Source: Chrysoperla carnea
Taxonomy: Eukaryota > Arthropoda > Insecta > Neuroptera > Chrysopidae
Assembly (NCBI RefSeq): GCF_905475395.1
Contig: NC_058342.1
Location: 26,260,640-26,324,639 of the forward strand
Length of the DNA stretch: 64,000 nucleotides
Direction: 5' to 3'
The notes beneath the pieces were generated by a model. It saw nothing but the letters and a program-made list of their open reading frames with translations, ran no database searches and had not been told where the DNA came from. Position 1 is the first letter of the stretch. Each line of letters begins with the position of its first letter. Shown here piece by piece: positions 9,816 through 64,000 of this stretch. The position numbers were made by a program, and so were the translations under genes.

Positions 9816-9951
9816 ATGGCAGTTCCATTTAGTATTCCTGACGAACAAAATGATTCGGATATCATTTTAACGCAACGTTTATTGGATTTGTACCAATTGT
9901 TGTATGAAATTTTACTACAAAGACAACCGTTAACGCCTTTAGATGATACAT
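9816..9951 (+). CDS. BH3-candidate gene, exon 1
   Basis: Encodes residues 1-45 plus one base of codon 46. It starts MAVPFSIPDEQ and has a leucine-rich helix-like stretch (residues 18-35). Donor T|GTAAGT. Confidence 0.7.
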
Positions 9952-11954
9952 GTAAGTAAAATGAAAAATTTTCGTTTAAGGGATGAGAATTATTCTAAAA
10001 TGTCGCCATGAAACGCACATGTGTGGTTCAATCGTTCAAGCACAAGTGCATTTTATAACAAAGAAATGCATTCTATGAGTCATTGTTAAAAATATTTGCA
10101 GGTGTTTTGAAGGGGTTTGAAATTGATTTTGGATTTTTTTATTTTTTTTTTTAGTACAATCGGTTGTAAATGAACAAACTGAAAATGAAGTGGTAACGAC
10201 CTTAGAAACGCCTTTTGTGGAATACGATGTACAAACGCAAGTTAAAAAGAAAAAAGTGAATCGTAGACGATTTAAAACGGAGGAAATTGTTGTGCCAGAT
10301 GCTCCTGTAGTGCCAGAACAACGATCCATTTGTCCGGATTGGATTGGGGTTGGACGAAATTTACGAAAAATTGCTGATAATTTTCATGTAAGTTTAATTT
10401 TTCTTCTTTTTTTTTTTTGAGCTAGTTGAAACCTTTGAAAATTTTTGTTTTTATTTGGCCAAAGGATTTCCTAGTATTTTTTTATCATTGTTTAGAACCA
10501 TTTTTTTTAAAGGATTCGAGCGGGATAATTTTTGAGATCCATTGTTGAGAAAAGTGATTATACAGAAAGATCAATGACCTTATTTTCAACCTCTTTAAAT
10601 TTTTTTTGTAAACAAATTTTTATGTATTACAAGAAAAAGTCTAAACACTTTCAATTTTAAACATACTTTGCCGACGGAACTATCAAAAAAATTTAAAAAT
10701 GGTGAATAAGTGAATAGAATTCTTTATTATCGGTAAAAATGTACAAAAAAACGGCTTTGAGCTTGAATAATTTTTTAGTTCAAAAAATTGTTTCAATTTT
10801 CCATAAAATAAAATGCTTTTTTGAAATACCAGAGACAAGAATTTGTTTGTTTAAATTATTTTAATAATAAACACGTTTTACTGTATTGAAATAATTTTCT
10901 TTTAAATTTAAAGTGCATGAATAATATCAGAGCCATCTATTAGCCTGAAATTAAACTACTACTTTTTATTTGTTAAATTTTTACGTACTGCATTTTTCTC
11001 AATAATGACGTTATTATTAACAATAATAAAGACGTTTTACTGTACATAATAAAATATTATTGTTCGTCTAAACCTGAAATACATGTTTATGATATCAGAG
11101 CCATCTAGTAATCTGAAATTAAACTAGATATTTTCCGCCACATTTACCTAATTTTTGTACAAGTTACGTATATTATAACGACGTTTTACTGTATTTTCTG
11201 CTATGGAAATAATAATTCAAATTCTTTTTCTAACAAACTAATGTGTTTGTTTGATAACAGAGCTGTCTATTAACATGCAATCAAACTAGACATTTTCTTA
11301 CAAAGTTTTTGTCTAATTTTGTCAATCATTACGACGTTTTACTGTTATTTTTCCTTCTATAATAATTATTGAAATTGTTGTTCTGCCTAACAAAGGTGCA
11401 TGTTTGATATCAAAATCATCAATTAACCTGAACATATAGAGTACATAAGGTTTTGTCTAGTTTATTCAATTATAACGACGTTTTACTGTATTTTTTGTAT
11501 CCTAAATAGTTAATAAAATTTTTCTCCAAAACTTAAGGGCGTGTTTAAGGTATCTTGTCTGCATTTTTCCATAATTCCAATTCTTCGAAAATTCTACCTA
11601 GCTATTTTTAATTTTGAACGAATTTAGGTCTCATAACCCAACTCCCCCCCTCTTTCCGCCTCAAAATATAGCGGTAAGAACATCGTATTCTATTTAGAAT
11701 CACATTCAATACAAAATTTATTCTATTTGAATTCCAACAATGCGAAATTGGTTCGATTTTTTTTTTTAACTTTTCTCCTTTTCTAATTGTTATAGAATTC
11801 AAAGCCATGCAATGAACCAGAAGTACCAGAATATTTCACCACACAAAATACCGATTTATTAACCACAATTGTTTCGCTATCACCATTTCGAGATTCACTT
11901 TGGTCGGCGGTATTCGTTGTCGGGTATCGAATTCTAAGTAATAATGCTCGATAA
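9816..11954 (+). CDS. Candidate BH3-only apoptosis regulator, 3 exons, 175 aa
   Basis: The exons are 9816-9951, 10155-10387 and 11796-11954. Phases join cleanly (phase 1, then phase 0) and all junctions are GT-AG. The first exon opens with ATG in the context AAACAATGG. Residues 108-123 read WIGVGRNLRKIADNFH, which fits the BH3 consensus: hydrophobic V111, L115, I118 and F122 at h1-h4, with a small residue (A119) followed by the invariant Asp120. It resembles the Bim type most. Residues about 158-171 (SLWSAVFVVGYRIL) form a short hydrophobic stretch near the C-terminus, compatible with tail anchoring in an outer mitochondrial or ER membrane. The middle has a Lys/Arg-rich patch (KKKKVNRRR). BH3-only proteins bind the groove of Bcl-2 relatives. 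I see no BH1, BH2 or BH4 region. The function is inferred from the motif alone, and a chance match within an unknown protein is the alternative. Confidence 0.7.
10155..10387 (+). CDS. BH3-candidate gene, exon 2 (BH3 motif)
   Basis: Encodes residues 46-123. The acceptor is a T-rich tract ending TTAG and the donor is CAT|GTAAGT. It carries the basic patch and all of the BH3 core. The exon ends right after the motif. Confidence 0.75.
10865..11490 (+). repeat. Degenerate ~150-bp tandem repeat in intron 2 of the BH3-candidate gene
   Basis: About five units are each marked by 'acgttttactgta' (near 10870, 11031, 11172, 11331, 11475) and by 'atatcagagccatct' followed by 'ctgaaattaaacta'. Spacing is about 140-165 bp. 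The marker is the inverse of TACAGTAAAAC, which is also the end of the TIR element at 12711-13139, so the array may derive from transposon ends. Confidence 0.65.
11796..11954 (+). CDS. BH3-candidate gene, exon 3 (hydrophobic tail)
   Basis: Encodes residues 124-175 and the TAA stop at 11952-11954. The acceptor is TTGTTATAG. It holds the hydrophobic C-terminal segment, and the last residues are SNNAR. Confidence 0.7.
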   Translation, partial: NSKPCNEPEVPEYFTTQNTDLLTTIVSLSPFRDSLWSAVFVVGYRILSNNAR

Positions 11955-12070: not shown

Positions 12071-12076
12071 AATAAA
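12071..12076 (+). terminator. Possible poly(A) signal of the BH3-candidate gene
   Basis: AATAAA lies 117 bases after the stop codon. The region is AT-rich, so such hexamers also occur by chance. Confidence 0.35.
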
Positions 12077-12710
12077 AAAATAATAATTGATAAAATATAG
12101 TTTTAATTATGAACAAAAAATATTATATATTAATAAAAGAAAAATATTTTTTAAAACGACGTAAAAAAAATACACGCATGCGCGTTCGTGGCATTTGGAA
12201 GAGATTAATGAAAATGATTTTTTAAGCTTTAGTTAGGCCAAAGTAAGGTTTTCGCCTGCAAATATATATATATACAAATATATATAGTTTTATATTGTGT
12301 TTTATAAAAAAAAAAGAGATGTAATTTTTTTTCACAAAGTGGTCCACAAAACTGGAACTGTGTATATTTTTTGTGAACCACTATGTACGTAAAAAAACGC
12401 CTTGTAATAAGCGTAAACACTGCCATTTTTTCAAAAAAAAAAGACAATCTTTAAAAAAAGAAAAAACAGTATTAAAAAAGAATATATTTTGTCGAAAATT
12501 TATTAGAAAAGAAAAGATGAAAATATGATCTCAAAAAATTTAATTTAATTCGAATCATTCTTCCATTTGTAGAGTAATTTATTACAAAAAAATCATAGTC
12601 AAAAAACAAAAAAAAATAAACTATTTCGATCGCAATAAATTTTTTAGCTTCCTTTTTCTTAAGCAGTAATTCAATAATAATTATATATAAAATATATATA
12701 TTATATAGTA

Positions 12711-23500: not shown

Positions 23501-26500
23501 AAAAATACACAAGGGGGGCTTTGTGCTTATAATTTATTAAATGGAATTTTATGCTGAAATTACTCGGTACTTGTCGGAGCTGAGGACAGGCGAGGGTCAG
23601 TTTTCGATAGTCAATCGAAGCGAATTCTCGCAAAGGTCGAGTGCATACTGCAATAGAACCGCACTTATGCAACGATTTCTCATACATTTATGAAAATTTT
23701 CCGTTTTTTATGTTTTCAACTTATCGCACAAGTCTTTGGAAGTATACTTGATTGACCTCCTGATTTTCTAAACTTAATCAGCACTACATCAATCAATTGG
23801 ACCTCGAAAAGGACCTTGCGATCATTTGAAAACATAAACTTGTGATTTTCCTGCTGTGTCCTCTCTGCCAAAAACCGAGTTATTTGAGTATGCCCTGATC
23901 AAAGTCTCAGTTATCAAGATAGCCTTGTTGTAGCCAACGACCAATACAGTGGAACCCCGGTAATCCCGGACTACCGGGATTCCACTATATTTAAATTCTT
24001 TGACTTTTTTATAATCTCAAAATCCCTGCTATTTTCCTGTCTTCCAGATTGATCGCAATCCGATTACCAGAATTTTTTTTCCCGAAATTTTAATAATTTG
24101 ATATTCTGTTTTGGTTACAGATTAAAACGTTTAGTTGCAATAAAAATAGTTAAAAGTGGTAAAATATTTTCGGAGACCGCACAAGATGAGATCTCATTGT
24201 TACGTGACGTATCGATTGTCGGTACCGATAATAAAAAATTTGATTATTTTGTACGAATTTACGATCAATTTGAGTTTCGTGGCGATAATGGCAAACATAA
24301 AGCAATAGTTTTTGAATTGTTAGGATGTAACTTATATAAGTTGACAACATTGACTCTAGGAATTGGTGTTGATATGACTTACGTGAAAATAATTACACGT
24401 CAAGTGTTGGAAGGCTTAGTGTTTCTACATGAAGAATGTGGCATTATACATACCGATATTAAACCAGAAAATATATTGATTGCTGGCAGTCCTGAATATC
24501 ATCGAAAAGTTGTTTTAAATGTTGCGAAATGGTTACAAGTTGAAATGCCATGGCCTAAACAATTTGGTAGGTAGATTTTTTTAGGCTTATTTAGGCTTAG
24601 GTAACTTATCCAAATTATAGAAGCTAATAGGGAAGTAAATTAACTCGGAGTTCAAAAGCAACTCGTTGAAAATTTGACGATAGACAGTTGAAAGGATGAT
24701 AAAATAACTTATTTAAGTTTCTCGAGCCTTGGTGGGAAGAAAGAATAAGTCTTAGGAACTTTGAATAAATCTGAATTTCTCAACGTTTTTGGACTGTCTA
24801 ATTCAGAGTTACCCAGACTTATTAAGGCTGAATTAAACAGTCCAAAAATGTTGATTCAGAGTTCCTAACATTTTTTCAGAGTTTCTAAGACTTATTAAGA
24901 CTTATTCTTTCTTCAAATATTTTTCCCACGAGAGTGTAAGAATTACCTTTCTCTCTATCAAATTACCTTTCAAACAGAAAAAAAGTCATTTAAATCGTTT
25001 CACGTGTTTAAGAGCTACCATGTCACAGGCAGACATATCTAGCGGTCAAACTTATAACACCTCGTTTTAGCGTCATTTTTCAAAAACGCCATGTTATAGA
25101 AATTTTAAGATGTTCCAAATTTTCAGAGAGTTGTTCGAGGCCAACATTGACATTTTCGAGGCCAAATTTCTAGGTTTTTTCGGTTTTAATCCAAACAAAT
25201 GCATTTTTGATATGTTTTTTTTTTTTAAATTTTAGTAAGCAATTGGAATGAAGATCGAGATTATATTTTAAGTAAAAAAGTTAAGAATGATATTATAGAA
25301 TTCCTAAAATCAATACATATCTCACGATGTAGTTGCAATAACGATCAAGTAAGTGTTTTTCTATCTCTTACACACTCTGTACATTTAATTTAAAAAAACT
25401 CCACATTTACAGTGTGTATAAGGGATAAAAATAATTAATTAATAATATTATTGTTACAGTTTAATCATAATGATTATATTAAAAGACTAAATGAAATATT
25501 TAATTCAAATACTCAGTTTACCAAAGATTTTCCACCGGAAATTAATGTGTTCCATGTACCATCACCGAAAAATTTACGAATTAAAATTGCTGATTTGGGC
25601 AATGCATGTTATGATGTAAATATATTTTTATTTTATTTTTTATTGGCTAACTTTTACGGATTCGAGAAGTGAAAAATATAATAAGAGAAAAATAAGAGTA
25701 AAATAAATAATTTCCGAAAATCTGACATTTTTAGAAATTCAGAAATCCTTACCCTCGCCATTCTGAGATATCATTGCAGGTAACGTTTTTGATATGTAAT
25801 GCTTCTTGGAAATCCGTTAGAGTTAATCCTTAACTTCTGGCTGAATGAATCCAAAAAGTTCTAAAATACTTTTTATTTAATTTGTTTCAAATTAGCATAC
25901 GCATTTCTGTGATCAAATTCAGACGTGTCAGTATCGGGGTCCAGAAACAATTTTAGGTGCTAAATATACATACTCAGCTGATATATGGTCGTTAGCGTGC
26001 GTCGTATTCGAATTAGCAGCTGGTGATTACTTGTTCGATCCGCGTGCAAGCTCAAAAGGTGAATATTCATGTGATGACGATCATTTAGCTCATATGATTG
26101 AATTGTTAGGACCCATGCCTGATCATGTATGGAAAAGTGGAAAATGGTCTGATAAATTTTTTACAAATGATGGTAAGTAAATCCGCTTTTTTATTTTAAC
26201 TCTTTAGTTTTAAGTTTTAATTACTCTCCCCCCCTCCTCCGCTCCAAACCACCCCAGTAAGAAACAATCAAAAAATAAAAATTTGGCCCCGGAAATTGGA
26301 GTGTGGTATGTTGAATTTAGAGTTTTAGACCCCGAGTTCATGATCAGCAACCAAAAAATCTTCCTACAGCTAATTCCGGCGGCAAAATATTCATTTTATA
26401 TACTGTTTCTTTTTGGGGTGGTTTAAGGGGGCTCAAACTCCCTCAATTTTCAAACCAAGAGGTTAGTATTGACGAATTTTCCTAAATGCGTAAGGAAACG

Positions 26501-28320: not shown

Positions 28321-28929
28321 AAATCCCTTCGAGTGTTATGGAAGGGGGATAAGTGAGATCAAGAGAGGTGGAGGCTATAAAGCGGTGGGTATCAAGCTAG
28401 TACTAGCTAAAAATAATATAAATATGCTATTAAAGTTGCCATCTATGTGTCTATTTTGGAACTTTTCAGGCGACCACTTTCATTTAATATAACGTGACAT
28501 GTAGCTTAAAAAATTGAAGTGTTTGTCAACTCTCGGATTATTTTCAAAAATAAAATATTAAAAAAAAAAAAGTATATTTATATAGATTATTTGATGAAAA
28601 AAAAAAATGATGCCACAAATATCAAGAAAATTATATATTTAGGAACATGTTTTGTGATTTAGCGAAAAAAAAGAGAAATGATATAAAAAAAAGTTCCAAA
28701 AAAATAAAGAATTATAAATAAATTTTTCAATTATGTTTGAATGTAATTTTTAAATTATTCAACAACCAAAACAAACAAAAAAAATTAAAAAGCCAGAAAA
28801 AAAATATTGACAAAATATATATCTAATTTCTTAGACATTATTTAAATGAGTTTTTATTGAGAAATTATTACCCCTACATTTAAAATACCTTGATCCGCAA
28901 TTCCATTTAAGTCAAAATCTGTTGAATTC

Positions 28930-30600
28930 CTGACATCTAGCACAATGGCAAATGGAAGCAAAAGGGTAACATCAAATATGAAGAGTTGGAGCCAAAATTA
29001 GTGGGATTCAAAAAAAATTCCAATAAAATTTGGCTGTAATATCGAAAAAATCGATTTTTTTAACTTTATGACGTCATCAAAATCCAAAAAAATTATATTT
29101 GCTCTATAACATCAAAATTATATGCAATTTTGATGCACCAAGTATGTAATCCTACTAAATTTGGGTCATACTTTTCGAATTTTTGGTCAAATTTGACCTT
29201 CCTCTAATAGATTTCAATTATGTGGGATCGTAGACCCCAAATTTAGCACAAAGGTGAACAGTAGCGTAAAATTTACTTCAAAAATGAAAAGTTTTAACCA
29301 AAATTAGTGGGATTCAAAAAAAATTCCAATCAAATCCGGATATAATTTGGATGTAATATCGAAAAAATCGATTTTTTGAACTTAATGACGTCATCAAAAT
29401 CCAAAAAAATTATATTTGCTCTATCACATCCAAATTATATCCAATTTTGATGAACCAATCATGTAATCCTACTAAATTCGGGCCATACTTTTTGTCTTTT
29501 TTGTCAAATTTTACCTATCTTTAATAGGTTTCAAGAATATGGGGTCCTGGTTCCAACATTTAGTACAAAGGTGAATGGTAGCGTAAAAATAACTACAAAG
29601 ATGAAAAGCTTGACCCAAAATTAGTGGGATTCAAAAAAAATTCCAATCAAATTCGATAAAATTTGGCTGTAATATCGAAAAAATCGGTTTTTTGAACTTT
29701 ATGACGTCATCAAAATCCACAAAAGTTATATTTGCTTTATCACATCCAAATTATATCCAATTTTGATGAATTAAGCATGTAATCCTACTAAATTTGGGCC
29801 ATACTTTTCGAATTTTTGATCAAATTTGACCTACCTTTAATAGGTTTCAAGAGTTTGGGGTCCTGGTCCTGACATTTAGCAAAAAGGTTAATTGTAGCGT
29901 AAAACTAACTACAAAGATAAAAGCTTGACCCAAAATTAGTGGGATTCAAAAAAAATTCCAATCAAATCCGATAAAATTTGGTTGTAATATCGAAAAAACC
30001 GATTTTTTAGACTTAATGACGTCATCAAAATCCAAAAAAATTATATTTGCTCTACCACATCCAAATTATATCCAATTTTGATAAACCAAGCATGTAATCT
30101 TACTAAATTCGGGCCAATTTTTGATCAAATTTTACCTATCTTTATTAGCTTTCAAGAATGTGGGACCTTGGTCCCGGCATTTAGCACAAAGGAGGTTCGT
30201 AGCGTAAAACTAACATCAAAGATGAAAAGTTTGACCGAAAATTAGTGGAATTCAAAAAAAATTCCAACCAAATCCGATAAAATTTGTCTGTAATATCGAA
30301 AAAATGGTTTTTTTGAACTTTATGACGTCATCAAAATCCAAAAAAATTATATTTTCTCTATCGCATCCAAATAATATTCAATTTTGATGAACTAAGCATG
30401 TAATCCTACTAAATTCGGGTCATACTTTTCGAATTTTTGACCTACCTTTAATAAGTTTCAATAATGTGGGATCCTGGTCCCGAAATTTAGCACAAAGGTG
30501 AATGGTAGCGTAAAAATAACTTCAAAGATGAAAATTTTGACCCAAAATTAGTGGGATTCAAAAAAAATTCCAACCAGATCGAATAAATTTTGGTTGTGGT
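28930..30600 (+). repeat. Tandem satellite, ~316-bp period, about 5 units
   Basis: Successive units share 'gacgtcatcaaaatcca', 'aattatatttgctct', 'catgtaatcctactaaat' and 'ccaaaattagtgggattc'. The marker 'gacgtcatc' falls near 29070, 29388, 29703, 30019 and 30323, so the spacing is 304-318. The units are diverged, which suggests an old array. No protein frame is conserved between units. A lone monomer sits at 1660-1915. Confidence 0.9.
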
Positions 30601-32811: not shown

Positions 32812-35800
32812 GTAAGATTATAAATCATTTTGTTTTAAATCTCCTAAAAAGAAAATATTTTTTCGAAAAGGATTCTTTGGTGTGTTTTTTTCTTCGATCA
32901 ATTTTTCATCCTTAATACTCTTTGTATTTTAACACGTAAAATTTATTGTTTTTTTTATTTTTTTTATTATTAACGCATGCGTATTATGTATTTGGTGTAT
33001 CTGTTGCAGGCTAACAAAAATCTGGTAAATCATGATTTTGTCTAAGTGTTTTTAAAAACTCTACAATAACGCTTTTCGCTTATTTGAAACGTCAAAAGGG
33101 TAGTAATGACACTTCAAACAAAATATTAATATTTGACTGCAAGTGAAAGTAACATAATAAAATTTTAATTATTTTGAGCTAAAATTGAGTCGTTTGTTTT
33201 TCCAAAAAGAATATGTTTGTATTCTGCTAGGCCTTCAATTAAAAAAATGTGTCCCACTAATCCATGGCTTAACTCAAAAGTCACTTTTTATGCTTAGAAC
33301 GCGCTGTAGATATTTCATCTTGCTACCTCTTTTCCTTTTTTACTTATCTTAATGGCCAAGCGGACGGACTAAAATCAGCCTTCTCCGAGGATAAATGTAA
33401 GTCCGATCGTTTAAAGAAAGATGGAACATCAAAAGTTCCGGTTCAGCATTTCTGTATTTAAATAAGTGCTTAAAATAGTAAATCTATATTGTCATTATAG
33501 CCGATAAGTCATTTTATCCGATGTTGTTTTAAATTGCATCGTCACATATATATTTCTATTTGAATTCAGTTTGTACTTTGTCAATTCGTCGTTATAAGCG
33601 ATAGATGTTTCGACCAATTCGTGACTCAAAAATACTGAGCTGACCTCTACTGATTTAAATCTGAAATGAAGAGGAAGGTGCAAACATTATCTTAAAATAT
33701 GTAAATATGGAGGGTAGAGGTAAGGCGAATCATCTCTGTATCTAAAAAGAGTCCACGAAAAGCAAAAAATTCGTGGCGCTGCTGTGGAAATAGTTTTAAA
33801 AGAATGTAATAAGAGTAAGATAAAGATTTAAACAAGCGTCATTTTGGTCAATTTTAGAACTTTTGTTTTCTATTGTCAAGTGCACACTTTTTTTACTTTG
33901 ATCTATATTTAAGATTGTGATTCTTACCTCTACCGTTCATACATATAACTAAATGACATAAAAAGGGAATTTGTACTTATAATGTCTTGGAATCGCGAAT
34001 AGCTACGAATCTGTTTTATAAAATGGCTAGACATAACATGATATACCAGATTTCATGGACTTGAATATATCCTTTAAGGCCATCTGTAATTAGATATTGA
34101 GTTATTAAAAACGCCATATTGATAAGTTTTTATTATATGTTAAAATTTCTATTGATTGGTGTTAAAATTTTAATAAAAATAATGAATTTTCATGAAAATT
34201 GTATTTTCATGATATGTTTTAATGATATTTAATATCATTGTAATAATTTTGTGAAAAATTTATTGTCAAAGGTAAGTTTTATACAATTTTATACAATTTG
34301 CATTAAGGTTCATATTTCTTTGGCAAGTACTCATACGATTTGAGCGATTATGAGCTTTTTGTCAATTTTCAATATATCAATGTACAGAATGAATCAGAAT
34401 TGGGGGTTATAATCAGATAAAATTTATTCTCATACAATTATTGAGTCGAAAATATTTTTTTGATTTTACGGTACGAAATATTTTCTGATATGACAAACTT
34501 TCCTATAATTGGTTAGAATTTTGAAAGGATTCTACCTCAAATTTTGTATACCGATAATTTCAAAAAGAAACACGATTTTTTTTTGCAAGAAAATCACTTG
34601 GGTCATATTTTGAAATGCGGTTTTTGTTTTTTCAAGTTTTTGACATCTTTTTCGTTCTGAAATGAAAATGATCTTTACTAATTTTGTCGTACGACACATG
34701 GTTTGAGATAATTGATAAAACGTGCTTTCCAAGGCGGGTGCTGAAGCTAGCGCCCCTTCCCCGTTCCGATAACTTGAGTTTACATTCGTGGAACAACCAT
34801 GGGCATATTTCAACAAGAAAATTCTTTCAGTAATCTCTGATTATTGGGGTACATCCAAAGGGCAATGGGCAAACACATTTTCTGTCTGAATCACTCTGTA
34901 CATACTAATCGTGTGTTCTTTTTTTTTCAAAAAAATGTTATTTATATTTCAGAGCATGCCTTCCTTATATTCTGTTTAAAAAATAAAAAAATTGAAAGCT
35001 GATTTAAAAATTTAGGAATGTTTGAATTAAAAAAAGACGGTTCAACGAGATGGCGTTGACAAATAGTATGGCAAGTGTGGATGCGGCCGAAAAAGAAGCA
35101 AGTGAAGTTTTACATTCATTGTTGTCGGTTGAACGTATCGTTAAGCAGGAAGATAATACAGTGAATCAACAGCAATCGAATAATGCTTCCAATCAAAATG
35201 GTACAAATCCACAAAATGGAACGTTACAATGGCAAGGAAATGTGGCGATTACAACGCATTCATTGTTCGAAGATCATTTTCCACAAACGATAGACGAACA
35301 GCAAGTTCATGATGTAAGCTTTTCCTTTCCCGCCAATTTTTTTTTTTTTTATTTAGAAATGTTCAAATTATTCTCATTGAGTTTGAATATTTTGGGGGAG
35401 CGGAAACGTTAAAAATATTGTTTGGCAAGATTATTTAGATGTTTTTCGAAGCTTGCACTAAATTTATTAGCTTGAAAGAATCATTGTTAAATTAAGATAG
35501 TATAATTTCAGGGAGTTTATGTATAGCTTCCGAAATACAATTTAATAAAATTCGAAATTCGAATCAATTCTAATTGTCAAATGTACCAGATATTTGAATT
35601 TTGGGGTCAAATTTAGCTTATGAACTGAGTTTTGTTAAATTCCGGAACAAAAAATTTGGATTTCATGATGTTTTCGACTTTTTCTAAAGTGCGAAAAATC
35701 GTAGTGATAGTGATTTTTTCGATTTTTTCGAAGGGGTACCCCTTAAGAAAATAACGAAAAATCAGGAAAAATTTCTTGTCTACAATTTCGATAAAACTCA

Positions 35801-38800
35801 GTGTATAAGGTAATTTTGACCCAAAAAATTCAAAAATCGAGTTTATTCAACGACTGGATCAGTAGTTTTCGAAATAATGTCACAAATCGATCCCAAATTT
35901 CGTTTTTCTCAGAAACTACTCGCCCAATCGTTAAATGCAATCGATTTTTGAATTTTTTGGACCAAATTTAGCTTATAAACTGAATTTTGTCGAATTCCGG
36001 AACAAAAATTTTTTTGTGATTTTTTCGATTTTTTCTAAGGGGTACCCCTTAAGAAAATAATGAAAAATCGAAAAAAATTTTTGGGCTCCAATTTTTATAA
36101 AACTCAGTATATAAGGTAATTTTGACCCAAAAAATTCAAAAATCGAGTTTATTCAACGACTGGATCAGTAGTTTTCGAAATAATGTCACAAATCGATCCC
36201 AAATTTCGTTTTTCTCAGAAACTACTCGCCCAATCGTTAAATGCAATCGATTTTTGAATTTTTTGGGTCAAATTTTCCTTATAAACTGAATTTTGTCGAA
36301 TTCCGGAACAAAAATTTTTTTGTGATTTTTTCGATTTTTTCTAAGGGGTACCCCTTAAGAAAATAATGAAAAATCGAAAAAAATTTTTGGGCTCCAATTT
36401 TTATAAAACTCAGTATATAAGGTAATTTTGACCCAAAAAATTCAAAAATCGAGTTTATTCAACGACTGGATCAGTAGTTTTCGAAATAATGTCACAAATC
36501 GATCCCAAATTTCGTTTTTCTCAGAAACTACTCGCCCAATCGTTAAATGCAATCGATTTTTGAATTTTTTGGGTCAAATTTTCCTTATAAACTGAATTTT
36601 GTCGAATTCCGGAACAAAAATTTTTTTGTGATTTTTTCGATTTTTTCTAAGGGGTACCCCTTAAGAAAATAACGAAAAATCGAAAAAAAATTTTGGGCTC
36701 CAATTTCAATAAAACTCAGTATATAAAGTAATTTTGACCCAAAAAATTCAAAAATCGAGTTTATTCAACGACTGGATCAGTAGTTTTCGAAATAATGTCA
36801 CAAATCGATCCCAAATTTCGTATTTCTCAGAAACTACTCGCCCAATCGTTAAATGCAATCGATTTTTGAATTTTTTGGGTCAAATTTTCCTTATAAACAG
36901 AGTTTTATCATTTTTCGAAATCAAAAATTGTTCATGATTTTTTCGATTTTTTCTACACCTAATAAAAATTGCAAAAAATCGGAAAAAAAAACTTTGGTCT
37001 TCAAATTAGTTAAACTCAGTACAAACGGTTATTTTGACCCAAAAAATACAAAAATCAACTTGATTTAACGATTGAACAGAAATTGAACTGAGATTTTACT
37101 CAATGTATTTGACGAAGCACCTTGATTACATATATCTCGGGAAATATGTACCACGCTAGAAAAAAATTAGCTTGGAAAGCAAAGTCATTGAGAAATTGAA
37201 ATGATGTCTTTATAAAATCAATAATTTCATTTAAAATTTGTAGGTAGTTTGGCAAGGCCACACAATTCAAGTTGGCAACGGTGAAATAAAATTCGACGCA
37301 ATCCCACAAATTTTAGATGAAGTCCAAGAAACGCAAGAACCTCAACAAACCACCCAACAACAGCACGAACCCACTATAATTCCTGTGAAAAAATCCAAAA
37401 AAGTGAAAATGAAAAATAATTTAAAAAGCTCATCAAAAACAATTGAAAAAACGAAAAAAAAGAAACCATCGTCGATCGTTAATTGGGATCCTACAAAATT
37501 AGAAGATAATGTTGCTCAAGTTAAGGAACGATTCAAACGTGGCTGTGAATGTCAGGACGAAAGTTGTTTTCGCGGTTTAAGTGCTGAAAGTGTTTACAAG
37601 CATCGTTTAAACATTGCAGAACTTACAAAGGGAGAACATGATATGTATTTAATGGGTGTGACAATGGCATGTTTGGCAAACCCCGATATTACGGTCCGTC
37701 ATAAGGAGCGACAACGATTACGTGCACAATACGTGTACCAAGGTCGACGTGTTTGTCTCGATGCATTTTTATATCTCGAAAACTGTACTCATTATCAATT
37801 AAAACGTATTCGAAAGCATGTAATGACACATGGAGTTGCTCCACGTGTCCATGGTAACCATGGTAAAAAACCTCACAACACATTCTCCTTGGATATCTAT
37901 CAACATGCAACGGAATTCCTAAAACAGTATTTAGAAACGACAACAGGCGAAACGAATATTTCAAATTCGAAAACTCCAATACAATTACCTTGGGATATAA
38001 CTCGAAAAAATTTACATAACGCGTACAAAGAATATGGACAAATAATCGAACCGGGTGTTAAATTAATGGGATACTCAACATTTCGTCATTTTTTAAAGGA
38101 ATTATTCCCGCATGTACGATTCTGTAAAGTTGAGCCAAAAAATAATTCACAAGTTGTAAGTAATGATCTGAATAAAATTCAACAATCATCGACTACGCAT
38201 GATCAACAACAGACAACACTTAAATCGGTGATAACAGGCAACGAAGTGCAACAAGTAATACCGTTGGTTGTGTCGCAAACGACAGCTGATGGAAGTCCCG
38301 GTCAGCAGCATCAACAAGCAACATTCTTAGTTGCCCCCGTTTCACAATTAATACCGAACGGTGGTAACTTAGTTACCATGCAACAAAGTGGTGGGGGTGC
38401 GACACAACATGCTACAAATACTACGACTTTTCCCTACCAAATTACGAATACGGGGTATGTGATCAATGAACAAGGTAATATTGTGACGACGATGGCAAAT
38501 CAACATCAGTCCTACAGCTTTAATCGAATGTGAGCGAATTATAGACAACGATATTTTTTATTGTGCTTTAAGAAAATTTTTTTTTGCGGCTTCAGCATGT
38601 AAAAAAAATACAGAATGGTTCCAAAAAATGATCCAGTTCTGTCGAGAATGATACGAATGCTAACAGGAAGTAGCTACAAATCATGAATTGGTCAGATAGC
38701 ATGTCCATTTTTCGTTATGTGAAAACAAATAAGGTAGAATTTTCCGAAATTTAATTGATTTTATTTTTTTTAATTGGAATTATGTGATTTTATTTTTTAT

Positions 38801-44800: not shown

Positions 44801-47800
44801 ACACCAGTGTTGTACAAAAGTTTACATTTTAGATTACAAGAAGCTGATTTAGGATTTCATTTGATTATTGATCGTCGCAAAGATCGATGGAATTCTGTTA
44901 AAGCTGTACTTTTAAAAATATCGGTAAGTATTCATGCGATATCTGATACTTCACTTAATTATCCAAAACAATGTCCATATTAGTCATGGGGGCGAATGCA
45001 AGCGCGGATTCAGCCCTCAAAAAAGGTGACGAGCACAGCACCCGAAAATCCAAATGACAATCGAAGTATGAAGGCGCTCATGATCGATATAGTGAATTCC
45101 TAGGAATATATGACGCCCTGGCCAAGATTTAATTCAAGCTTTCGTTTTTTTTCGCGAAAGCGTTGATAATATCATCGATTTCCAGGTCCGTAATATCATC
45201 GTCCAGATAGGTACGCGAGGTCGACTTTTTTTTACGAAGTTTTTACCACCTAATAAAGAGTTGTGGAAAATTTCAAAGATGCATTAATTTTTTTCTTTTA
45301 GATATTTCATTGTACTATATAGGCAAAGTTTTGGATAATTTATTTTGCAATTACAACATACGAAATTTGAATTATGTTTTCTTTTTTCAGGGATATTTTC
45401 CGGGAATTATTCATGTTGCATATGTGATACGGCCTGCTAGTCTATTACAAAAAGCTATTTCAGAAGTTAGCAATAAATTATTTAAGGAAGAATTCAAATT
45501 TCGTGTCATAGTTTGTAGTCGAGTTGAAGAGTTGCACGAATATATTGACCGATCTCAACTCACGCAAGAGTTAGGTGGATTCTTAAAGTATTCCCATCAT
45601 GATTGGATTCAGCAACGAATTGTAAGTACTTGATTTTTCACATTTCTCTTTTTTCATCTTAATTAAAGAAAATTTAAAAAAAAATACCAAAACTTTTTGT
45701 TCAATTCTCTTTAATTAAGATTACTAGACAAGATATTTGTCAATATTTAGTTTACGCTGTATGTATCATATTAAAATCGTCAATTATAATCGAGAGACTT
45801 TGATGTAAATAAATATCGTATACATGATTAAAAAGTAACCACACAAAAAAAAATAACTAAATTTTCGGTTTGGTTTTAGGAATTACAAAAATTTTCTGTA
45901 ATGACAAAAGAAATCTCACAAGCATTAGATATATTTCTATCAAGTATTTTAGAAACAGAATTTCCAAATAATGTGGAAGCAACACAACAATTATTAAATC
46001 AACAAGGTATACTTTATGCTGAATTAAAAGATGAAATTCTATCAGCAACAAAACATGGTGAACATTTACTGTTAAATATTAAAGAAAACCCCGCATCTAA
46101 GTGTACCGAGCCGACTTTAACCGACAATACTGATAAATTAGGGAATGTATTCGCTGTTGAAAGGTAATTTTTATTTTACTCTTTTTTAAAAGGTTGGGCA
46201 AAATTGAACATATTTATGATTTCTGAAGGAAGTGGTTAAGTTTGTAAAATATTCGATCGTTCATATCCACTTTAACTCTAGACTATCTCTACCAAATTTC
46301 ATTAAAATCGGTTCAGTAGTTTAGGTGTAATTGCGTAACATACATACAGACAGACAAACTTTCTTTCGCATTTATAATAAAAGTTAGGATAACTATACAT
46401 AACCTGTCAATTTATTTTGCAATAATGTCGTACAATTGCTGTTTGTATATGATAATTCGCCCTAAAATCCCCCTGCATACTAATTTTCATGAAATTCATT
46501 GGAGCCGTTTCCGAGATTGATGATGATTGACGAAACCCCCTGCATACTAAATTTCATGAAAATCAATGGACTCGTTTCCGAGAGAAAGCGACTTCTTTCT
46601 TCTTAAAATGGAATCTAGCTAGATCGCTTTTTCACCCCTAAAACCCCCTGCATACTAAACGTGTGTTTTTTAACAACGCCATCTACTGAAACCTAGCTTT
46701 AGTGTTTCAGTATCGGTAAAGCAGTAAATTGCTCCCATTTAAAAAAATAATAGTATTACTACTCGCCAATAGATGGCAGTAAGAGTCATATTTTCAGTTT
46801 GTTTCAGCTTTTCCTGAAAACACGGCTAAAACAACATTTTCTAAAAATGTAACTTAGCTAGATCGATTTTTCGCCTCAAAACCCTCTGCATACTAATTTA
46901 TATGAAAATCGTTGAAGCCGTTTCCGAGATTGATGATATATATACAAGAATTGCTCGTTTAAATAAGATAAAATATTTTGGCAATTAGTTTGACAAAATG
47001 GAAATTAGTTGAGTAATAAGGCAAGTCCCTAAGTAGGGCCCTAACAAATTCACGATCCGTCCCTGATAAAAAGAACATACCGTTAAATCGACCGATTATA
47101 ATGACTATCGGATTTAACAACCATAATTGTGGGTCTCTTCGATGTCGTTATAATTGATTTTGATTGTAAAATTCTGCTTCTTTTTTTTTTTAGATTATTG
47201 GTACAATTAGAAGAAACTGAGCGTACATTTGATGAATTTTGGCAACAGCATTTTGCAAAATTACAGCAATGCTTAGAGTTACGTCGTTTTGAACAAAGTT
47301 TTAAAGAGTTACAAAGTAATTTTGATACGCACTTAAAAACAGTTAGCGAAATGACGGAAATTGGTGAAACTGTGAATCGTGTCGATACCCTAATACAAGA
47401 AACTACTGATTTTCAAAAAGTATGCTTGTATGACATTGATCGAGCCGAAGAATTAGTATCAACTGGTCAACAATTATTGCAAATCAAAAATTCATTGTCG
47501 TTGGATTGTATTGAACCGAAATGTTCGGAATTGAATCGTATGTGTGATATTCTGTCGGAACGTTTAACACGACGTTTGGATACGCTAACGAAATGTCGTG
47601 ATTTAATGGAACGCGTTGAAAAGGTTTGTTTTTAATCAATTCATTCTTTGGGCTTTAACATGACAGTAATTCCAGAAACGCAAACTAAATTTCTTTTTTC
47701 GATTCTTTGAATGTTTTCTAACTTTGAAAATGAACATGTAATTACTGTCTTGTTTTACTTTAAAAGTGAATCCTAGACATAAGAAGTTTTAATCTAAGAA

Positions 47801-50800: not shown

Positions 50801-53707
50801 GTTCAGAATTTTCTAATTTGATTTTGTGTCACTGATACTTCTAGGGGTAGCTTTAATGGGGTTGCAACACTTCTTCAGTTGCTTTTTGACTCCGGGTTTC
50901 AGGTCATTCTAGGGGTAGTTCGTTCTAGCCTAGACAACTACTCCAATTAGTGGAGACAATTTCCGAGGTGAAATTTTAATTTTTTTTTCACTTTTACTAT
51001 TTGGAGTGAATGTTTCTGAAGGTCTAAGGAACACTTACAAGAAAAATTTTTAAATCGGAGCTGTTCCATTACTTTTTTCCACATTTGTTTAAGAAAAAGA
51101 AAAGAATTTCTCTTCGCTACAACTACACTATTATTTTTTTTACAGAAAGACAATTTTTTCCGATTATACAGTTCCTATTGTCAAAATTTAACGCGTTCTG
51201 AACAATTACGTGAACAATTAACATCGGATGCGCATGCGTTATTACAATCATTACAACGTAAATTAAATCATCAGTTACCATTGGCTGCATATTTATTAAA
51301 GCCAGTACAACGGATCACAAAGTACCAATTATTATTAAAGGACCTGCATCGATATAGTCAGGATGATCCGCATGCAGTTTGCGACCATCAGCAGCTTCAA
51401 GAAGCTTTAAATTGTATGCTACTAGTATTAAAATGTGTAAATGATAGCATGCTACATGTGGCTATCACAGGCTATCCAAACGATTTATCTCAACAAGGTG
51501 AACTCCTACTTCAAGGCTCCTTCTCTGTATGGACAGAAAGTAAAAAAGATTTACGGTTACGTTTAAAAACAATGCAACGTCACATATTCTTATACCAAAA
51601 AGTGATCTTATTCTGTAAATCGATTGCGAAGTCAACGCACACGAAAGCGATGTATCAATTTAAGCATTCGTTGAATATGAGCGAAATTGGTTTAACGGAA
51701 TCGGTGAAAGGTGATCATAAGAAATTTGAAGTATGGTTACAAGGTCGTCAAGAAGTACATACGATACAAGCGGCTACAATTGAACAGAAACAAGAGTGGG
51801 TTAGTAAAATTAAACGAGTCTTGTTCAATCAGTTGGAAGAGTTGAAGGGCGAAAAAATTAAGCAATATTCATCGTTAATTCACAAGTAAGTTTTTCAGTT
51901 TATTTGCCTTATTTTCCACGATTTAATAATCTATCGGTGTTAGCCTCGTTCTCAAAGCGGGATCAATAGAGTGCAAGAGTTGTAGTGTCTGTCTCAAGTT
52001 TGAACTGATTTCAGAAAGGGTAGAATCGGTTTTAATCAACTTATAATCCAAAAAATATATAGTCGAAATGAGATCGTTTGAAATGGTGATGGGAGGGGGG
52101 GTGGTTAGCTAGTTAGCTTACATTTGGCCGCTGGTCTCGAAATAGCCCTATAGTTTCAATTATCTCATAGTCTATAAATGCTTCGTGGAACGTGGAAGCG
52201 CCTGGTACTGAATAATACAGTCAGGCTGATCTGGGTACCGGCCCACATCTTGCGTTAAAGGAAATGAAGCAACGGATTCGCCCCTTTCATCTAAACCTGC
52301 CATTCCCATAGCAAGATGTTCCGTAATTTACCAAATCAAAAAATAACTACGAGAACCTTGATTGAACTACCGCCTTCATAACATGGGAATCTCTTTGGGC
52401 CTGTAGGGAGGATGATAAAACTTCCATATATGTTTTTTTCACTTGTAAGAAACTTACAGGGGCTCAGGTTTAGAATGTTTGAGTCCGAAACCTTGGATCT
52501 ATCAATCCTGGGAGAAATCCCGGGGGAGAAACTTTGGGCTTCCTACCATAGCTTCAGAATCCTATAGCTTCATCTTCTTAAAATAGCATATTTTACCCGT
52601 AGTCATCTCGTCTTCGGGTGACAGGTTGTTTCCAAAGAGAGCACAAAGAACCCCGGGGTCTAGGTTCTAAGGACCCATTTGCGGTTTGTTTTCAATTGTT
52701 ACGAAGTAATTTTATAAATTATATTTTTTTATAGACCTCTACGACAAACAATTTCTTGGGAACGCCAAGTGTCCACGACGACTAGTTCTAGTGCAGCTTG
52801 TGCTTTACCAGAACGTACAATGAGTTGTGACACAGCGTTAAGATCAACACCTGAAGAAACGCTCGAATCAAATGTATGCTGGTCTTCGGACTATAGCAAT
52901 AGTGAAGATGAAGACCCATTTGTTGAACAATCTTCAAATATTGGTTCAACGACAGGATCTTCAATTACTTTAGTAAGTACAAAAGATTATCTTGGATTCC
53001 TTTTCCACGAAAATAGTTACGAAAGGTTTTTGGTCCAAAAATATGGGATCTCGTAAAATTGGTGATATTTCCTCTTTCTCGTCTCATTCAGTGTTGGATT
53101 TAGGCATAGGCACGTTTTAGAGACACCTCATTTTTAGATCTGTTATTTTGCGAAATTCGAGGCTTTCGTTTATTAACTAAGCAATTTCACGATCCAATAA
53201 CTTTGAGTGTTGAGTTGCGGTGTAAGTTACAGAGCACCTAATTTCACAAATCAAAAAGGGCGGCATATCAAATCGTGTCTAAGGCGGCATCAAGCCTAAA
53301 TTCACCACTGATTTAAAATTTAATGTATTTTTTGGGCCAAAAACCTTTGTAAAAAATTTTGGACATTGTTGTGACTGCTTGAATTATTTTTGTAGAATGA
53401 ACGAATAACAGATATGAATCGTGGAAAATATGTGGCTTTAGCTGATTATAACGCAATTGGGCATAATGAAGTTAGTATTAAGGAGGGTGATATTTTTGAG
53501 CTGTTAAAAGTTGGATGCGCTGGTTGGTGGTTTGTTAGATTTGCAAGTAAGAATCCATATAAACTCAATAAAATTCAATTGTATTGTTTTAAATCGTAAA
53601 CTTTTATTACAGATTCGACCAAAGAAGGTTGGGCACCAGCTGCTTATCTTGAACCGATTAGTGGTAAAAAGAATCGGTATCGAAGTCAGGATGCTCTCAG
53701 TGACTAA
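32604..53707 (+). CDS. Dbs/MCF2L-type Rho guanine nucleotide exchange factor, 13 exons, 1152 aa
   Basis: The exons are 32604-32811, 43229-43466, 44833-44923, 45391-45621, 45880-46163, 47194-47623, 48756-49166, 49792-49947, 50031-50216, 51146-51885, 52735-52972, 53396-53546 and 53613-53707. Every junction is GT-AG and every phase agrees. The total of 3459 coding bases is close to the length of vertebrate MCF2L. Domain order: a Sec14/CRAL-TRIO-like domain (about residues 94-256), a spectrin-like helical region (260-500 and beyond), DH (about 662-845, with the conserved LLKPVQRITKYQLLLKDL), PH (863-970, ending EWVSKIKRVL) and a C-terminal SH3 (1081-1137, with ALADYN, GWW and GWAPAAYLEPI). The DH-PH pair loads GTP on Rho-family GTPases at membranes. 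The Sec14 and spectrin parts are known to bind phosphoinositides and restrain activity in Dbs. Intron 1 (10.4 kb) holds a second gene. The first exon may be one of several alternatives. Confidence 0.95.
35050..35313 (+). CDS. Nested gene, exon 1
   Basis: Encodes 88 codons from ATG (MALTNSMASVDAAEKEASE) to HD|GTAAGC. It has a Gln/Asn-rich part (NQQQSNNASNQNG). The upstream untranslated exon was not located. Confidence 0.82.
35050..38533 (+). CDS. Nested gene: transposon-derived-looking nuclear protein, 2 exons, 517 aa
   Basis: The exons are 35050-35313 and 37244-38533, joined in phase 0. The gene lies wholly inside intron 1 of the RhoGEF, on the same strand. The first 88 residues are acidic and Gln/Asn-rich. 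Residues about 136-165 are a Lys-rich, nuclear-localisation-like tract. About 167-365 form the ordered part: GCECQDESCF (three Cys), then VCLDAFLYLENCTHYQLKR, HVMTHGVAPRVHGN, and GYSTFRHFLKELFPHVRF. From memory, this order resembles the N-terminal half of a family of large uncharacterised, transposase-like proteins abundant in cnidarians and molluscs, which continue into a catalytic-type core. Here that core is absent. A Gln-rich tail (380-517, QQATFLVAP and similar) replaces it, of the kind found in transcription regulators. I infer a domesticated transposon-derived DNA-binding or chromatin protein. I know no gene name for it, and a direct assay or homology search is lacking. Confidence 0.85.
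35545..37085 (+). repeat. Tandem satellite, ~304-bp period, about 5 units, in the nested gene's intron
   Basis: The units repeat 'ggggtaccccttaag', 'caacgactggatcagtag', 'aatcgatcccaaatttcg' and 'ctcgcccaatcgttaaat'. The marker GGGGTACCCCTT recurs near 35735, 36039, 36344 and 36650. The middle units are nearly identical, so amplification is recent, and the outer units are diverged. The satellite fills most of the 1.9-kb intron. Confidence 0.92.
37244..38533 (+). CDS. Nested gene, exon 2
   Basis: Encodes 429 codons from VVWQGHTIQVG to the TGA. It carries the Lys-rich tract, the Cys-containing ordered domain and the Gln-rich tail. The acceptor is AATTTGTAG. Confidence 0.9.
   Translation, partial: VVWQGHTIQVGNGEIKFDAIPQILDEVQETQEPQQTTQQQHEPTIIPVKKSKKVKMKNNLKSSSKTIEKTKKKKPSSIVNWDPTKLEDNVAQVKERFKRGCECQDESCFRGLSAESVYKHRLNIAELTKGEHDMYLMGVTMACLANPDITVRHKERQRLRAQYVYQGRRVCLDAFLYLENCTHYQLKRIRKHVMTHGVAPRVHGNHGKKPHNTFSLDIYQHATEFLKQYLETTTGETNISNSKTPIQLPWDITRKNLHNAYKEYGQIIEPGVKLMGYSTFRHFLKELFPHVRFCKVEPKNNSQVVSNDLNKIQQSSTTHDQQQTTLKSVITGNEVQQVIPLVVSQTTADGSPGQQHQQATFLVAPVSQLIPNGGNLVTMQQSGGGATQHATNTTTFPYQITNTGYVINEQGNIVTTMANQHQSYSFNRM
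38891..39314. mobile_element. TIR element family B (MITE)
   Basis: The ends CAGAGTGACGATCGA and TCGATCGTCACTCTG-type (right end 'tcgatcgtcactctg') are a 14-15-bp inverted repeat bounding 424 bp. Flanking 8-mers (ATAAAAAT and AAAAAATT) are only similar. It sits about 360 bases after the nested gene, in RhoGEF intron 1. The CAG-type ends suggest hAT. Confidence 0.7.
39490..39710 (-). repeat. Dispersed repeat family G, inverted copy
   Basis: The reverse complement reads 'cagaaattgtaagcgtata', 'tacagctatacgcgcc', 'cgatcaatcgtttggcgg' and 'tattatctctatga', matching 48165-48370 and part of 18618-18720. Confidence 0.6.
40680..40875. repeat. Dispersed repeat family D, copy 3
   Basis: In RhoGEF intron 1. 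Shares 'ctccgattttcaaatg', 'aaatcggtgctgtcg' and 'cttatttattcgactat' with the other family D copies. Confidence 0.45.
43229..43466 (+). CDS. RhoGEF exon 2 (start of Sec14 domain)
   Basis: Encodes residues 70-148. RDVLNLLQSQYAIITGG opens the Sec14-like domain as in Dbs and MCF2. Confidence 0.92.
43519..44685. mobile_element. hAT-like TIR element with nested repeat
   Basis: Bounded by 'CAGTGTTGGATTTAGGGG' and 'CCTAAATCCGCCCCTG', an imperfect inverted pair. It spans 1167 bp of RhoGEF intron 2 and contains a family R repeat (44168-44480). The 8-mers outside do not match, so the boundaries are tentative. Confidence 0.5.
44168..44480 (+). repeat. Dispersed repeat family R, copy 2
   Basis: Close match to 28023-28320: 'tataaatgtgaaagtaag', 'caaaaactaccgaatg', 'cacatgagctgtaatt' and 'tctgatatactcaatgaa'. 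It lies inside the hAT-like element. Confidence 0.65.
44833..44923 (+). CDS. RhoGEF exon 3
   Basis: Short Sec14 exon encoding LGFHLIIDRRKDRWNSVK. The acceptor is CATTTTAG and the donor TCG|GTAAGT. Confidence 0.92.
45225..45310 (+). repeat. Dispersed repeat family H, fragment
   Basis: 'gtcgacttttttttacgaag' and 'ttgtggaaaatttcaaag' also occur at 62760-62860 and, inverted, at about 55640-55735. Confidence 0.5.
45391..45621 (+). CDS. RhoGEF exon 4 (end of Sec14 domain)
   Basis: Encodes residues 180-256, including YFPGIIHVAYVIRPASLLQ and LGGFLKYSHHDWIQ, the latter typical of the Dbs Sec14 terminus. Confidence 0.93.
45880..46163 (+). CDS. RhoGEF exon 5 (helical, spectrin-like)
   Basis: Encodes residues 257-350, predicted helical: ISQALDIFLSSILETEFPN and LLNQQGILYAELKDEIL. 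Confidence 0.9.
46255..46390 (-). repeat. Retroelement-derived repeat leader, inverted
   Basis: The reverse complement has 'ttattataaatgcgaaag', 'ttgtctgtctgtatg', 'cctaaactactgaaccg' and 'attttaatgaaatttgg', a motif chain common in insect retroelement repeats. It lies in a RhoGEF intron. Confidence 0.5.
47194..47623 (+). CDS. RhoGEF exon 6 (spectrin-like repeat)
   Basis: Encodes residues 351-494. FDEFWQQHFAKLQQCLELR with following heptad-like leucines is a spectrin-repeat signature of the Dbl/Dbs group. Confidence 0.92.
47849..48128. mobile_element. pogo/Tigger-like MITE in a RhoGEF intron
   Basis: The ends CAGTGGAACCTCGATAACTC and GAGTT/AGTTATCGAGATTCCACTG are inverted repeats around 280 bp. 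The interior repeats the theme ('ttcgagttcat', 'cgacttaacgaggttc'). TA follows the right end. On the left a TA lies two bases out. 'Cagtggaacctcgataa' ends are typical of Tigger-type elements. Confidence 0.75.
48165..48450 (+). repeat. Composite repeat: family G plus a 304-bp-satellite fragment
   Basis: Family G words ('cgatcaaccgctttggca', 'gatattatctctatgga', 'ggtcgcagacctaa') are followed directly by 'ttttttgggtcaaaatta' and 'ccgagttttatcc', the satellite-like part. The same order occurs at 18618-18800. Confidence 0.6.
48756..49166 (+). CDS. RhoGEF exon 7
   Basis: Encodes residues 495-631: the end of the helical region (SWCTRGVELLASQ) followed by a Pro-rich linker (RSPRPVQTVTPERAMPLQP) before the DH domain. 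Confidence 0.9.
49247..49380 (+). repeat. Dispersed repeat family J, copy 1
   Basis: 'accgttagagatagaacaaa', 'cttttgtttgga' and 'catcactgtttttccgtgag' recur at 62530-62660. It has no coding content. Confidence 0.55.
49792..49947 (+). CDS. RhoGEF exon 8 (start of DH domain)
   Basis: Encodes residues 632-683. HTLSELLTTEQTYVEELYSI is the first DH helix. Confidence 0.93.
50031..50216 (+). CDS. RhoGEF exon 9 (DH domain)
   Basis: Encodes residues 684-745, with VDVLFGNLDELYNFH-like helices (IDVLFGNLDELYNFHANIF). Confidence 0.93.
50270..51075. repeat. Dispersed repeat family D, long copy
   Basis: This RhoGEF intron carries several internal near-repeats of 'tttgatc-caaattcat', 'atcagcgaccc-aaaa' and 'tttaatggggttgcaac', then 'ggtctaaggaacactta' as at 560-1080. 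It looks like an internally duplicated family member. Confidence 0.5.
51146..51885 (+). CDS. RhoGEF exon 10 (DH end and PH domain)
   Basis: Encodes residues 746-991, the largest exon. LLKPVQRITKYQLLLKDL is the conserved DH helix that contacts the GTPase. The PH domain follows (GELLLQGSFSVW to EWVSKIKRVL). Confidence 0.95.
52190..52684 (+). pseudogene. Degenerate non-LTR retrotransposon fragment (RNase H to 3' end)
   Basis: It sits in RhoGEF intron 10. A broken frame reads 'LIWVPAHI', the RNase H core motif of LINE polymerases (compare LVWVPGYRDIPG at 60.65 kb), followed by stops and frameshifts. A Cys-containing stretch and a 3' part follow ('ctcgtcttcgggtgacagg', 'aggttctaaggaccc'). That 3' part is repeated, inverted, at 63520-63625. 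It is not functional. Confidence 0.6.
52735..52972 (+). CDS. RhoGEF exon 11 (linker)
   Basis: Encodes residues 992-1071, a Ser/Thr-rich and acidic linker (SDYSNSEDEDPFVEQ) between PH and SH3. Confidence 0.88.
53089..53310. mobile_element. hAT-like MITE in a RhoGEF intron
   Basis: A 222-bp element between 'CAGTGTTGGATTTAGGC' and 'GCCTAAATTCACCACTG', nearly perfect inverse ends shared with the larger element at 43519-44685. No target duplication is visible. Confidence 0.65.
53396..53546 (+). CDS. RhoGEF exon 12 (SH3 domain)
   Basis: Encodes residues 1072-1121: KYVALADYNAIGHNEVSI and GDIFELLKVG with GWW, the first half of an SH3 domain. Confidence 0.92.
53613..53707 (+). CDS. RhoGEF exon 13 (SH3 end and stop)
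   Basis: Encodes the last 31 residues: STKEGWAPAAYLEPI completes the SH3. The protein ends SQDALSD before TAA. Confidence 0.92.
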
Positions 53708-63217: not shown

Positions 63218-63422
63218 TTATAAGGCGTATGGGAATGGGATATCTTGTTGGGAACATCCCGATTCCTGACTGGACGGTGGCGTATCTAATTGTGGTAGAC
63301 CCAAATCTAAATACTCTTCGTTTGCGGTTATTGTTAATATACGATCTAAATCTTCAACAAGACCTGAGAAATTTGGACGTTCTGTTGCTTGATAGCTCCA
63401 ACATTCTCGCATTAACATATAT
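63218..63422 (-). CDS. FGF receptor, last coding exon (C-terminus only)
   Basis: On the minus strand an acceptor TTTTTTCAG (63423-63431) is followed by 67 codons and [21 protein letters not shown] is the last kinase helix of a receptor tyrosine kinase. [10 protein letters not shown] and [10 protein letters not shown] are specific to FGF receptors, where NEEYLDL contains the PLC-gamma docking tyrosine. The tail ends [13 protein letters not shown] receptors (heartless and breathless in flies) signal from the plasma membrane to Ras-MAPK. The remainder of the gene lies beyond 64000. Confidence 0.93.
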
Positions 63423-64000
63423 CTGAAAAAATACATTTTTTTAAAATAAAACAATGAAAGGATCTTAACGCAAATTTGTTTGGGAAACACTTTCGATGGA
63501 TTCGTAATGATAATAAAACAAAAGAGGGGTACCGCAAGTGGATCCCTAGAACCTAAACCGAGAGTCCTCTGTGCCCTCCTTGAGAACGACCTGTCATACG
63601 AAGACGAGACGTTTTCGGGTAAAAATTAACTAAGTTACTTTTCTGGTCCAAAATATTTTTTTAAATTTGTGATTAAAAACCTGTTGGCGTGTACTCAATT
63701 TCTGCCAGATATTTTCCAGTGACAATATCGAATTTTCCCGAATATTTACGATATCATTCTAACCGTATTATCATCAAAATGTTATTTATATAAAAAATTG
63801 TGTTCGGAATAATATCGTGAGTATTCGAGAAATTTTGATGTTGCCACTCGTTAGAATTTATCAGAGATCGAATTTAAAACAGGCCTCATGAACAATCGAT
63901 TTATTGGGGATGTATTCGAATCCAGTGAAAATGTTTTTCCATAAGATTTGAGTATCAAAGAAAAAGTTTAAAGAAAATAGTGAAAAATTACATTTCTATT
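63423..64000 (-). other. Intron of the FGF receptor gene
   Basis: No further exon is seen. It contains an inverted LINE 3' fragment (63520-63625) like that at 52595-52684. Confidence 0.6.
63520..63625 (-). mobile_element. LINE 3' fragment, second family
   Basis: The reverse complement reads 'ctcgtcttcgtatgacagg', 'gagggcacagagga' and 'aggttctagggatcc', matching the 3' part of 52190-52684 on the other strand. Confidence 0.6.

Follow-up and report, generated by a model that had tools for sequence, protein, structure and literature searches.

A candidate hid-like RHG gene of Chrysoperla carnea encodes an IAP-binding motif and a BH3-like motif

The window, by which we mean the whole 64,000-nucleotide stretch of Chrysoperla carnea DNA that was analysed, contains a candidate gene of three coding exons on its forward strand. 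Coding exon 1 (9816..9951, + strand) carries the start ATG, an IAP-binding motif (IBM), and a GH3-like helix, and is defined by an open frame and a GTAAGT donor. Coding exon 2 (10155..10387, + strand), defined by its frame and splice sites, encodes the middle region of the protein, which is predicted coil, together with a BH3-like motif, while coding exon 3 (11796..11954, + strand), defined by its frame and acceptor, encodes a C-terminal tail ending in arginine and includes the stop codon. The exons measure 136, 233, and 159 bases, the outer two being the smaller, and splicing 9816-9951 / 10155-10387 / 11796-11954 yields exactly 175 amino acids plus a stop. Both introns are of the GT-AG class (phases 1 and 0), each opening with a GTAAGT donor and closing with an AG acceptor; the three-exon model and 175-residue protein put forward in the initial annotation hold, all joins checking out in frame at canonical splice sites. 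The start codon stands in the context ACAATGG, with an A at -3, and an AATAAA lies 3′ of the stop (12071..12076, + strand), with a second copy at 12132.

Codon usage supports the reading of this locus as a coding gene. Its training set comprised 1,482 codons drawn from six further frames, of which five lie in the window and one in the Bcl-2 locus L002 described below; three of the six, those at 21099, 37244, and 47105, are without a Pfam match. The whole coding sequence scores 66.1 bits, against a null maximum of 7.2 among 3,000 random 525-base intergenic stretches. Exon 1 reaches 20.9 bits (other forward frames, -7.3 and -6.0; best reverse frame, 8.7) and exon 2 reaches 35.4 bits (best reverse frame, 18.2), while exon 3 taken alone is weak at 9.3 bits, with one reverse frame scoring higher at 16.8. 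When the 559-Mb genome was searched with the protein, the matches were the candidate's own three exons only (three matches from five first-look candidates, where match counts in the genome searches are lower bounds), and the DNA of exon 2 matches only itself in the whole genome. The gene is apparently single copy, though a diverged paralogue may exist. Compared with the PDB, the whole 175-residue protein gives no match, and a Pfam search at E values up to 10 gives YceD (0.096, below its cut-off) as the sole match, with no Bim, Bmf, or Bcl-2/Bcl-x interaction model. No relatives were confirmed among six pattern stretches in viral_contigs or 40 in genome_contigs, which is unsurprising for a gene from an insect.

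The protein begins MAVPF, and this start fits, directly after Met1, the published IBM consensus A-[KTVI]-[PAE]-[FEISY] (PMC8620624). The tetrapeptide AVPF (residues 2-5; 9819..9830, + strand) would be exposed upon removal of Met1, a step that we infer, and MAVPF is, judged by its residues, an IAP-binding motif like those of Hid, Reaper, and Grim, a feature absent from the initial annotation. Further along exon 1 lies a GH3-like segment, LTQRLLDLYQLLYEI (residues 18-32; 9867..9911, + strand), a predicted helix that gives an ungapped match to the GH3 of Sf-IBM1. This match is modest, where 13 of 2,000 shuffles equal its score against the GH3 sequence printed for Spodoptera IBM1 (PMC7215429). In the AlphaFold2 model of exon 1, a helix spans residues 12-35, with a mean pLDDT of 92 for residues 21-30. 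A Reaper sequence aligns over candidate residues 1-37, with 59 of 2,000 shuffles doing as well. The Trp-block of Hid and the Drosophila Hid tail do not align to the candidate above shuffles (1,087 and 1,119 of 2,000, respectively), and the hid-like label used here thus rests on layout and motifs and not on alignment. A short, run-off form of exon 1 is also possible (9816..9959, + strand), seen as an open frame only, where a 47-residue product ending PLDDTCK would retain the IBM and the GH3-like helix. Intron 1 contains neither AATAAA nor ATTAAA, and the lepidopteran short (S) isoform provides a precedent for such a form (PMC8620624).

At the other end of the protein, the tail includes a mildly hydrophobic stretch, LWSAVFVVGYRIL (residues 158-170; 11898..11936, + strand), which is a candidate counterpart of the mitochondrial targeting tail of Hid. 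The idea that this region could serve as a C-terminal membrane anchor is weak: within the last 20 residues the best 19-residue Kyte-Doolittle mean is 0.58 (11-residue mean, 1.68), compared with 19-residue means of 1.8-2.3 in three comparison tails. The best 19-residue mean anywhere in the protein is 1.17, at residue 148. According to a 2021 survey, hid-like RHG genes are found throughout the winged insects, mostly as single copies and usually with three coding exons of which the outer ones are smaller; a C-terminal arginine is present in most, though not all, of the proteins, and Gly-Trp (Gly-Cys in Diptera) lies 5-7 residues from the end of a tail that is hydrophobic, though this pair is not universal, being absent in Tribolium (PMC8620624). 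The candidate ends NNAR and so has the terminal arginine of most hid-like homologs. Its tail has Gly-Tyr (G166-Y167, with 9 and 8 residues after them) in place of the GW or GC of the published proteins, and because this is GY, and farther from the end than the published GW, the Gly-Trp hallmark is not exactly reproduced. We conclude that the candidate is most likely this insect's hid-like RHG IAP antagonist, as opposed to a simple BH3-only protein, because of its MAVPF start, GH3-like helix, three coding exons, and terminal arginine.

The BH3-like motif, WIGVGRNLRKIADNFH, occupies residues 108-123 (10340..10387, + strand) and ends exactly at the exon 2 donor. Its core, L115 to D120 (LRKIAD; 10361..10378, + strand), follows the minimal BH3 pattern as printed in PMC10107002, namely L-x3-[GAS]-D with flanking hydrophobics, and V111, L115, I118, A119, D120, and F122 are all in BH3 register. 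The motif as first described, with its hydrophobic positions and the A119-D120 pair in register, is seen in the spliced protein, and because it falls wholly within exon 2, any transcript that contains exon 2 in this frame encodes it. We scored the segment with a 15-position BH3 matrix built from 12 BH3 segments (11 human and EGL-1). The candidate reaches 16.9 bits, while the leave-one-out scores of the 12 true BH3s run from 10.5 (BOK) to 28.9 (PUMA), four of them below that of the candidate. When the candidate protein was shuffled 20,000 times, this score was never attained (best shuffle, 16.3), a statistically good result, and the next-best score in the window is 12.6 among 49,386 stop-free 15-mers. 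BH3 motifs have little information content, and this motif taken alone is good, not decisive.

In a single-sequence AlphaFold2 model of exon 2 (residues 47-123), exactly one helix is formed, at residues 108-121, coinciding with the motif, and when hydrophobic moments are taken over 16 residues, the protein's top six all overlap it. The model has a mean pLDDT of 71, with block means of 73-74 for the helix and 62-76 for the coil; since the helix is not more confident than the coil around it, the model shows helix propensity, nothing more. In BH3-only genes other than Bid, the BH3 lies in the second-to-last coding exon (PMC7022251). The candidate's BH3 likewise sits in exon 2 of three coding exons, reaching that exon's last base, although non-coding exons may follow the third. 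As a separate observation, DVQT (residues 70-73, 10226-10237), ahead of a basic run, is a weak possible site for LC8 (dynein light chain), its register being atypical, by eye, for an LC8-binding motif. Such motifs occur in Bim and Bmf.

The same genome encodes both IAP and Bcl-2 family proteins. BIR domains occur at 19 places, 18 of them over the cut-off, and one 430-residue frame contains two BIRs and a RING end (the RING recognised by eye), as in a DIAP1-like IAP. Its second BIR matches PDB chain 1jd4 at 5.7e-34 (grouped with 1jd5, 1jd6, and 1q4q as 'APOPTOSIS 1 INHIBITOR'), while its top PDB match, ahead of 1jd4, is the multi-BIR protein BIRC1 (9e-47). We take the 1jd4 group to be BIR2 of fly DIAP1, with IAP-antagonist or caspase peptides in some entries. 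Clustering of 14 of the 19 BIR places at G000:C5:70.7-73.8 Mb suggests a local expansion of IAP-like genes or pseudogenes. For the Bcl-2 family, two places, at C4:60830637 and C1:75159044, exceed the Pfam cut-off and one falls below it. The protein at L002 is BOK-like (5wdd, 7.9e-26), with TWGK in BH1. Besides this gene there is a Bax/Bcl-xL-like gene at L003 (G000:C4:60829137-60832310, - strand), whose protein, from two exons joined by hand, matches 4zie (1.5e-10) and has TWERVV in BH1, keeping the arginine that aligns to Bax NWGRVV. A later frame at L003, taken as the last exon, encodes a strongly hydrophobic tail (a tail anchor), and RNase H-like retrotransposon sequence, recognised by eye, lies ahead of that exon. 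A Bcl-2 protein of non-BOK type in an insect is worth separate study. The third Bcl-2-like place, at C2:42868028, is the one below the Pfam cut-off; it has an internal stop and was set aside.

We propose, as a reading that we hold to be evenly poised, that the candidate is a dual antagonist, where the IBM acts on IAP and the BH3 helix on Bcl-2. Removal of Met1 would expose AVPF at the N-terminus, which would then dock into a BIR groove on the DIAP1-like IAP, thereby releasing caspases. The GH3-like helix of exon 1 and the C-terminal tail would carry the protein to mitochondria, where the WIGVGRNLRKIADNFH helix could enter the groove of a Bcl-2 family protein. The likeliest groove would be that of the Bax/Bcl-xL-like protein, with the BH1 arginine pairing with the BH3 aspartate. 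The IAP half of this reading is well supported, and by analogy with the RHG family the IAP step is very probable; action at mitochondria we infer from knowledge of the same family. The Bcl-2 step, for which we put the chances at roughly equal either way, is suggested by the quality of the motif, its position in the gene, the existence of a groove that has the appropriate arginine, and the coincidence of the motif with an apparent death gene. The last of these carries weight since the protein was picked for its BH3, with the IBM unmentioned, yet looks like a death gene on other grounds, which in our judgement makes a chance match unlikely.

An explanation that we consider a serious possibility, if somewhat short of an even chance, is that the candidate is an ordinary hid-like RHG IAP antagonist whose residues 108-123 form an amphipathic helix that serves some other purpose (contact with a membrane, or binding of other RHG proteins or of a regulator) and resemble a BH3 by chance. 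Random 15-mers reach 16.9 bits in 17 of 19,999,720 cases, which corresponds to about six chance matches in an insect-sized proteome (assumed to hold 15,000 proteins of 450 residues), as this explanation would have it, but to only ~1.4e-4 per 175-residue protein, which speaks against it, although an amphipathic helix raises that figure. All of the RHG evidence fits this explanation. The motif segment, searched against the PDB, finds eight sequences, none of them a BH3 peptide, but instead the unrelated Ac-ASP-7 (two matches, best E 0.47) and bacterial EsxB (six matches, E 0.52-1.7); against this stand a score equal to those of true BH3s and a penultimate coding exon that fits BH3-only genes. 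By the matrix, the fly proteins Reaper and Grim and the tested part of Hid contain no BH3 (best score, -0.2), which also favours this explanation. The motif is thus not general to RHG proteins, and would either have been acquired in this lineage or have disappeared from flies.

The label of the initial annotation, a BH3-only protein, was the wrong first choice, given the IBM and GH3-like helix, even though the motif on which it was based is real and lies in the penultimate coding exon. The BH3 is not the only recognised functional motif of the candidate, with the IBM and GH3-like helix also present. We regard it as very unlikely that this is a true BH3-only protein of the Bim/Bmf kind in an insect, with MAVPF incidental: the quality of the BH3, its second-to-last coding exon, the predicted coil around it, and identity at 7 of 15 positions with Bmf (by eye) would suit such a protein, but AVPF falls exactly at position 2, the GH3-like helix, terminal arginine, and three coding exons belong to the RHG layout, no Pfam Bim or Bmf match is found, and the tail is weak. 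Least probable of all is that the gene is inactive or its model wrong, such that exon 3 or the start differs and the protein is not made as written, since the weak codon score of exon 3, exceeded by a reverse frame, is outweighed by 66.1 bits for the coding sequence against a null maximum of 7.2, canonical splice sites, a good start context, and AATAAA signals.

Vertebrate Bim and Bmf resemble the candidate in their BH3 core, mostly disordered chain, and BH3 in the penultimate exon, but give no sequence-profile match to it, and are not known to have an IBM. Mammalian ARTS (Sept4_i2) is described as a dual antagonist of XIAP and Bcl-2 (PMC7140716), as we propose for the candidate, but it is a septin splice form and is not homologous. 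It is not known to have an N-terminal AVPF tetrapeptide. The hid-like RHG homologs share with the candidate the N-terminal IBM, in most cases a single copy, three coding exons, terminal arginine, and a glycine near the tail end (Friedrich 2021, PMC8620624). They differ in having GW or GC near the end, where the candidate has GY farther from the end, and the candidate adds the BH3 motif; the term BH3 has no occurrence in that survey (PMC8620624). The lepidopteran IBM1/Reaper protein has an IBM and a GH3 helix at its N-terminus, as the candidate does, and the 47-residue form expected from a run-off of the candidate's exon 1 would resemble it (PMC7215429). The two differ in that residues 69-91 of IBM1 are strongly hydrophobic (PMC7215429), and in that the candidate has, in addition, exons 2 and 3 and with them the BH3-like motif.

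A further point of comparison is Drosophila Sayonara, an insect death protein with a BH3, as in the candidate, but one that belongs to an unrelated coiled-coil family and for which no IBM is described in the sections cited here (PMC10107002). Its BH3 motif is needed for killing, and the protein acts with Buffy and Debcl, while the motif itself is new to Diptera and can be dispensed with for gross Buffy/Debcl binding (PMC10107002). In the view of the authors of that work, BH3 motifs are short linear motifs of a kind that evolves readily (PMC10107002), which calls for caution over a single motif and equally shows that a lineage can acquire one and put it to use. A group including melanogaster is listed among those without identified BH3-only proteins (PMC8998228), and in the titles, abstract openings, and passages retrieved from the open-licence PMC literature we found no description of a BH3 motif in an RHG protein. 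If the dual-antagonist reading is true and the BH3 works, this hid-like protein would unite in one molecule two death pathways that are otherwise ascribed to different proteins, and mammalian ARTS would be its natural counterpart. The upstream activator that insect Bcl-2 proteins seem to lack would then come from the IAP-antagonist family itself, making the old question of insect Bcl-2 inputs directly testable.

Elsewhere in the window, 10 frames were scanned with Pfam and three matched, corresponding to neighbouring exons for a protein kinase (24053-24571), CRAL-TRIO (45211-45630), and RhoGEF/PH (51020-51886), the latter two perhaps from one Dbl-type exchange factor. A likely C-terminal exon of an FGF receptor, recognised by eye and without a Pfam match, lies at 63221-63625 on the minus strand. 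Two tandem arrays, at 28928-30597 and 35710-36955, both have a 306-base period with different units. Contig C6 ends (L012) in a 6-kb array whose repeat is yet another unit of 306 bases, with a 99% match, and contig C1 opens at its start (L005), by eye, with this C6-end unit reversed. TTAGG repeats are absent from the six readable contig ends (of eight, the other two reading N). The fetched ends of C2 (L008) and C4 (L010) are repetitive, while the C1 end (L006) and the C6 start (L011) are not, and satellites may cap some chromosomes in this genome.
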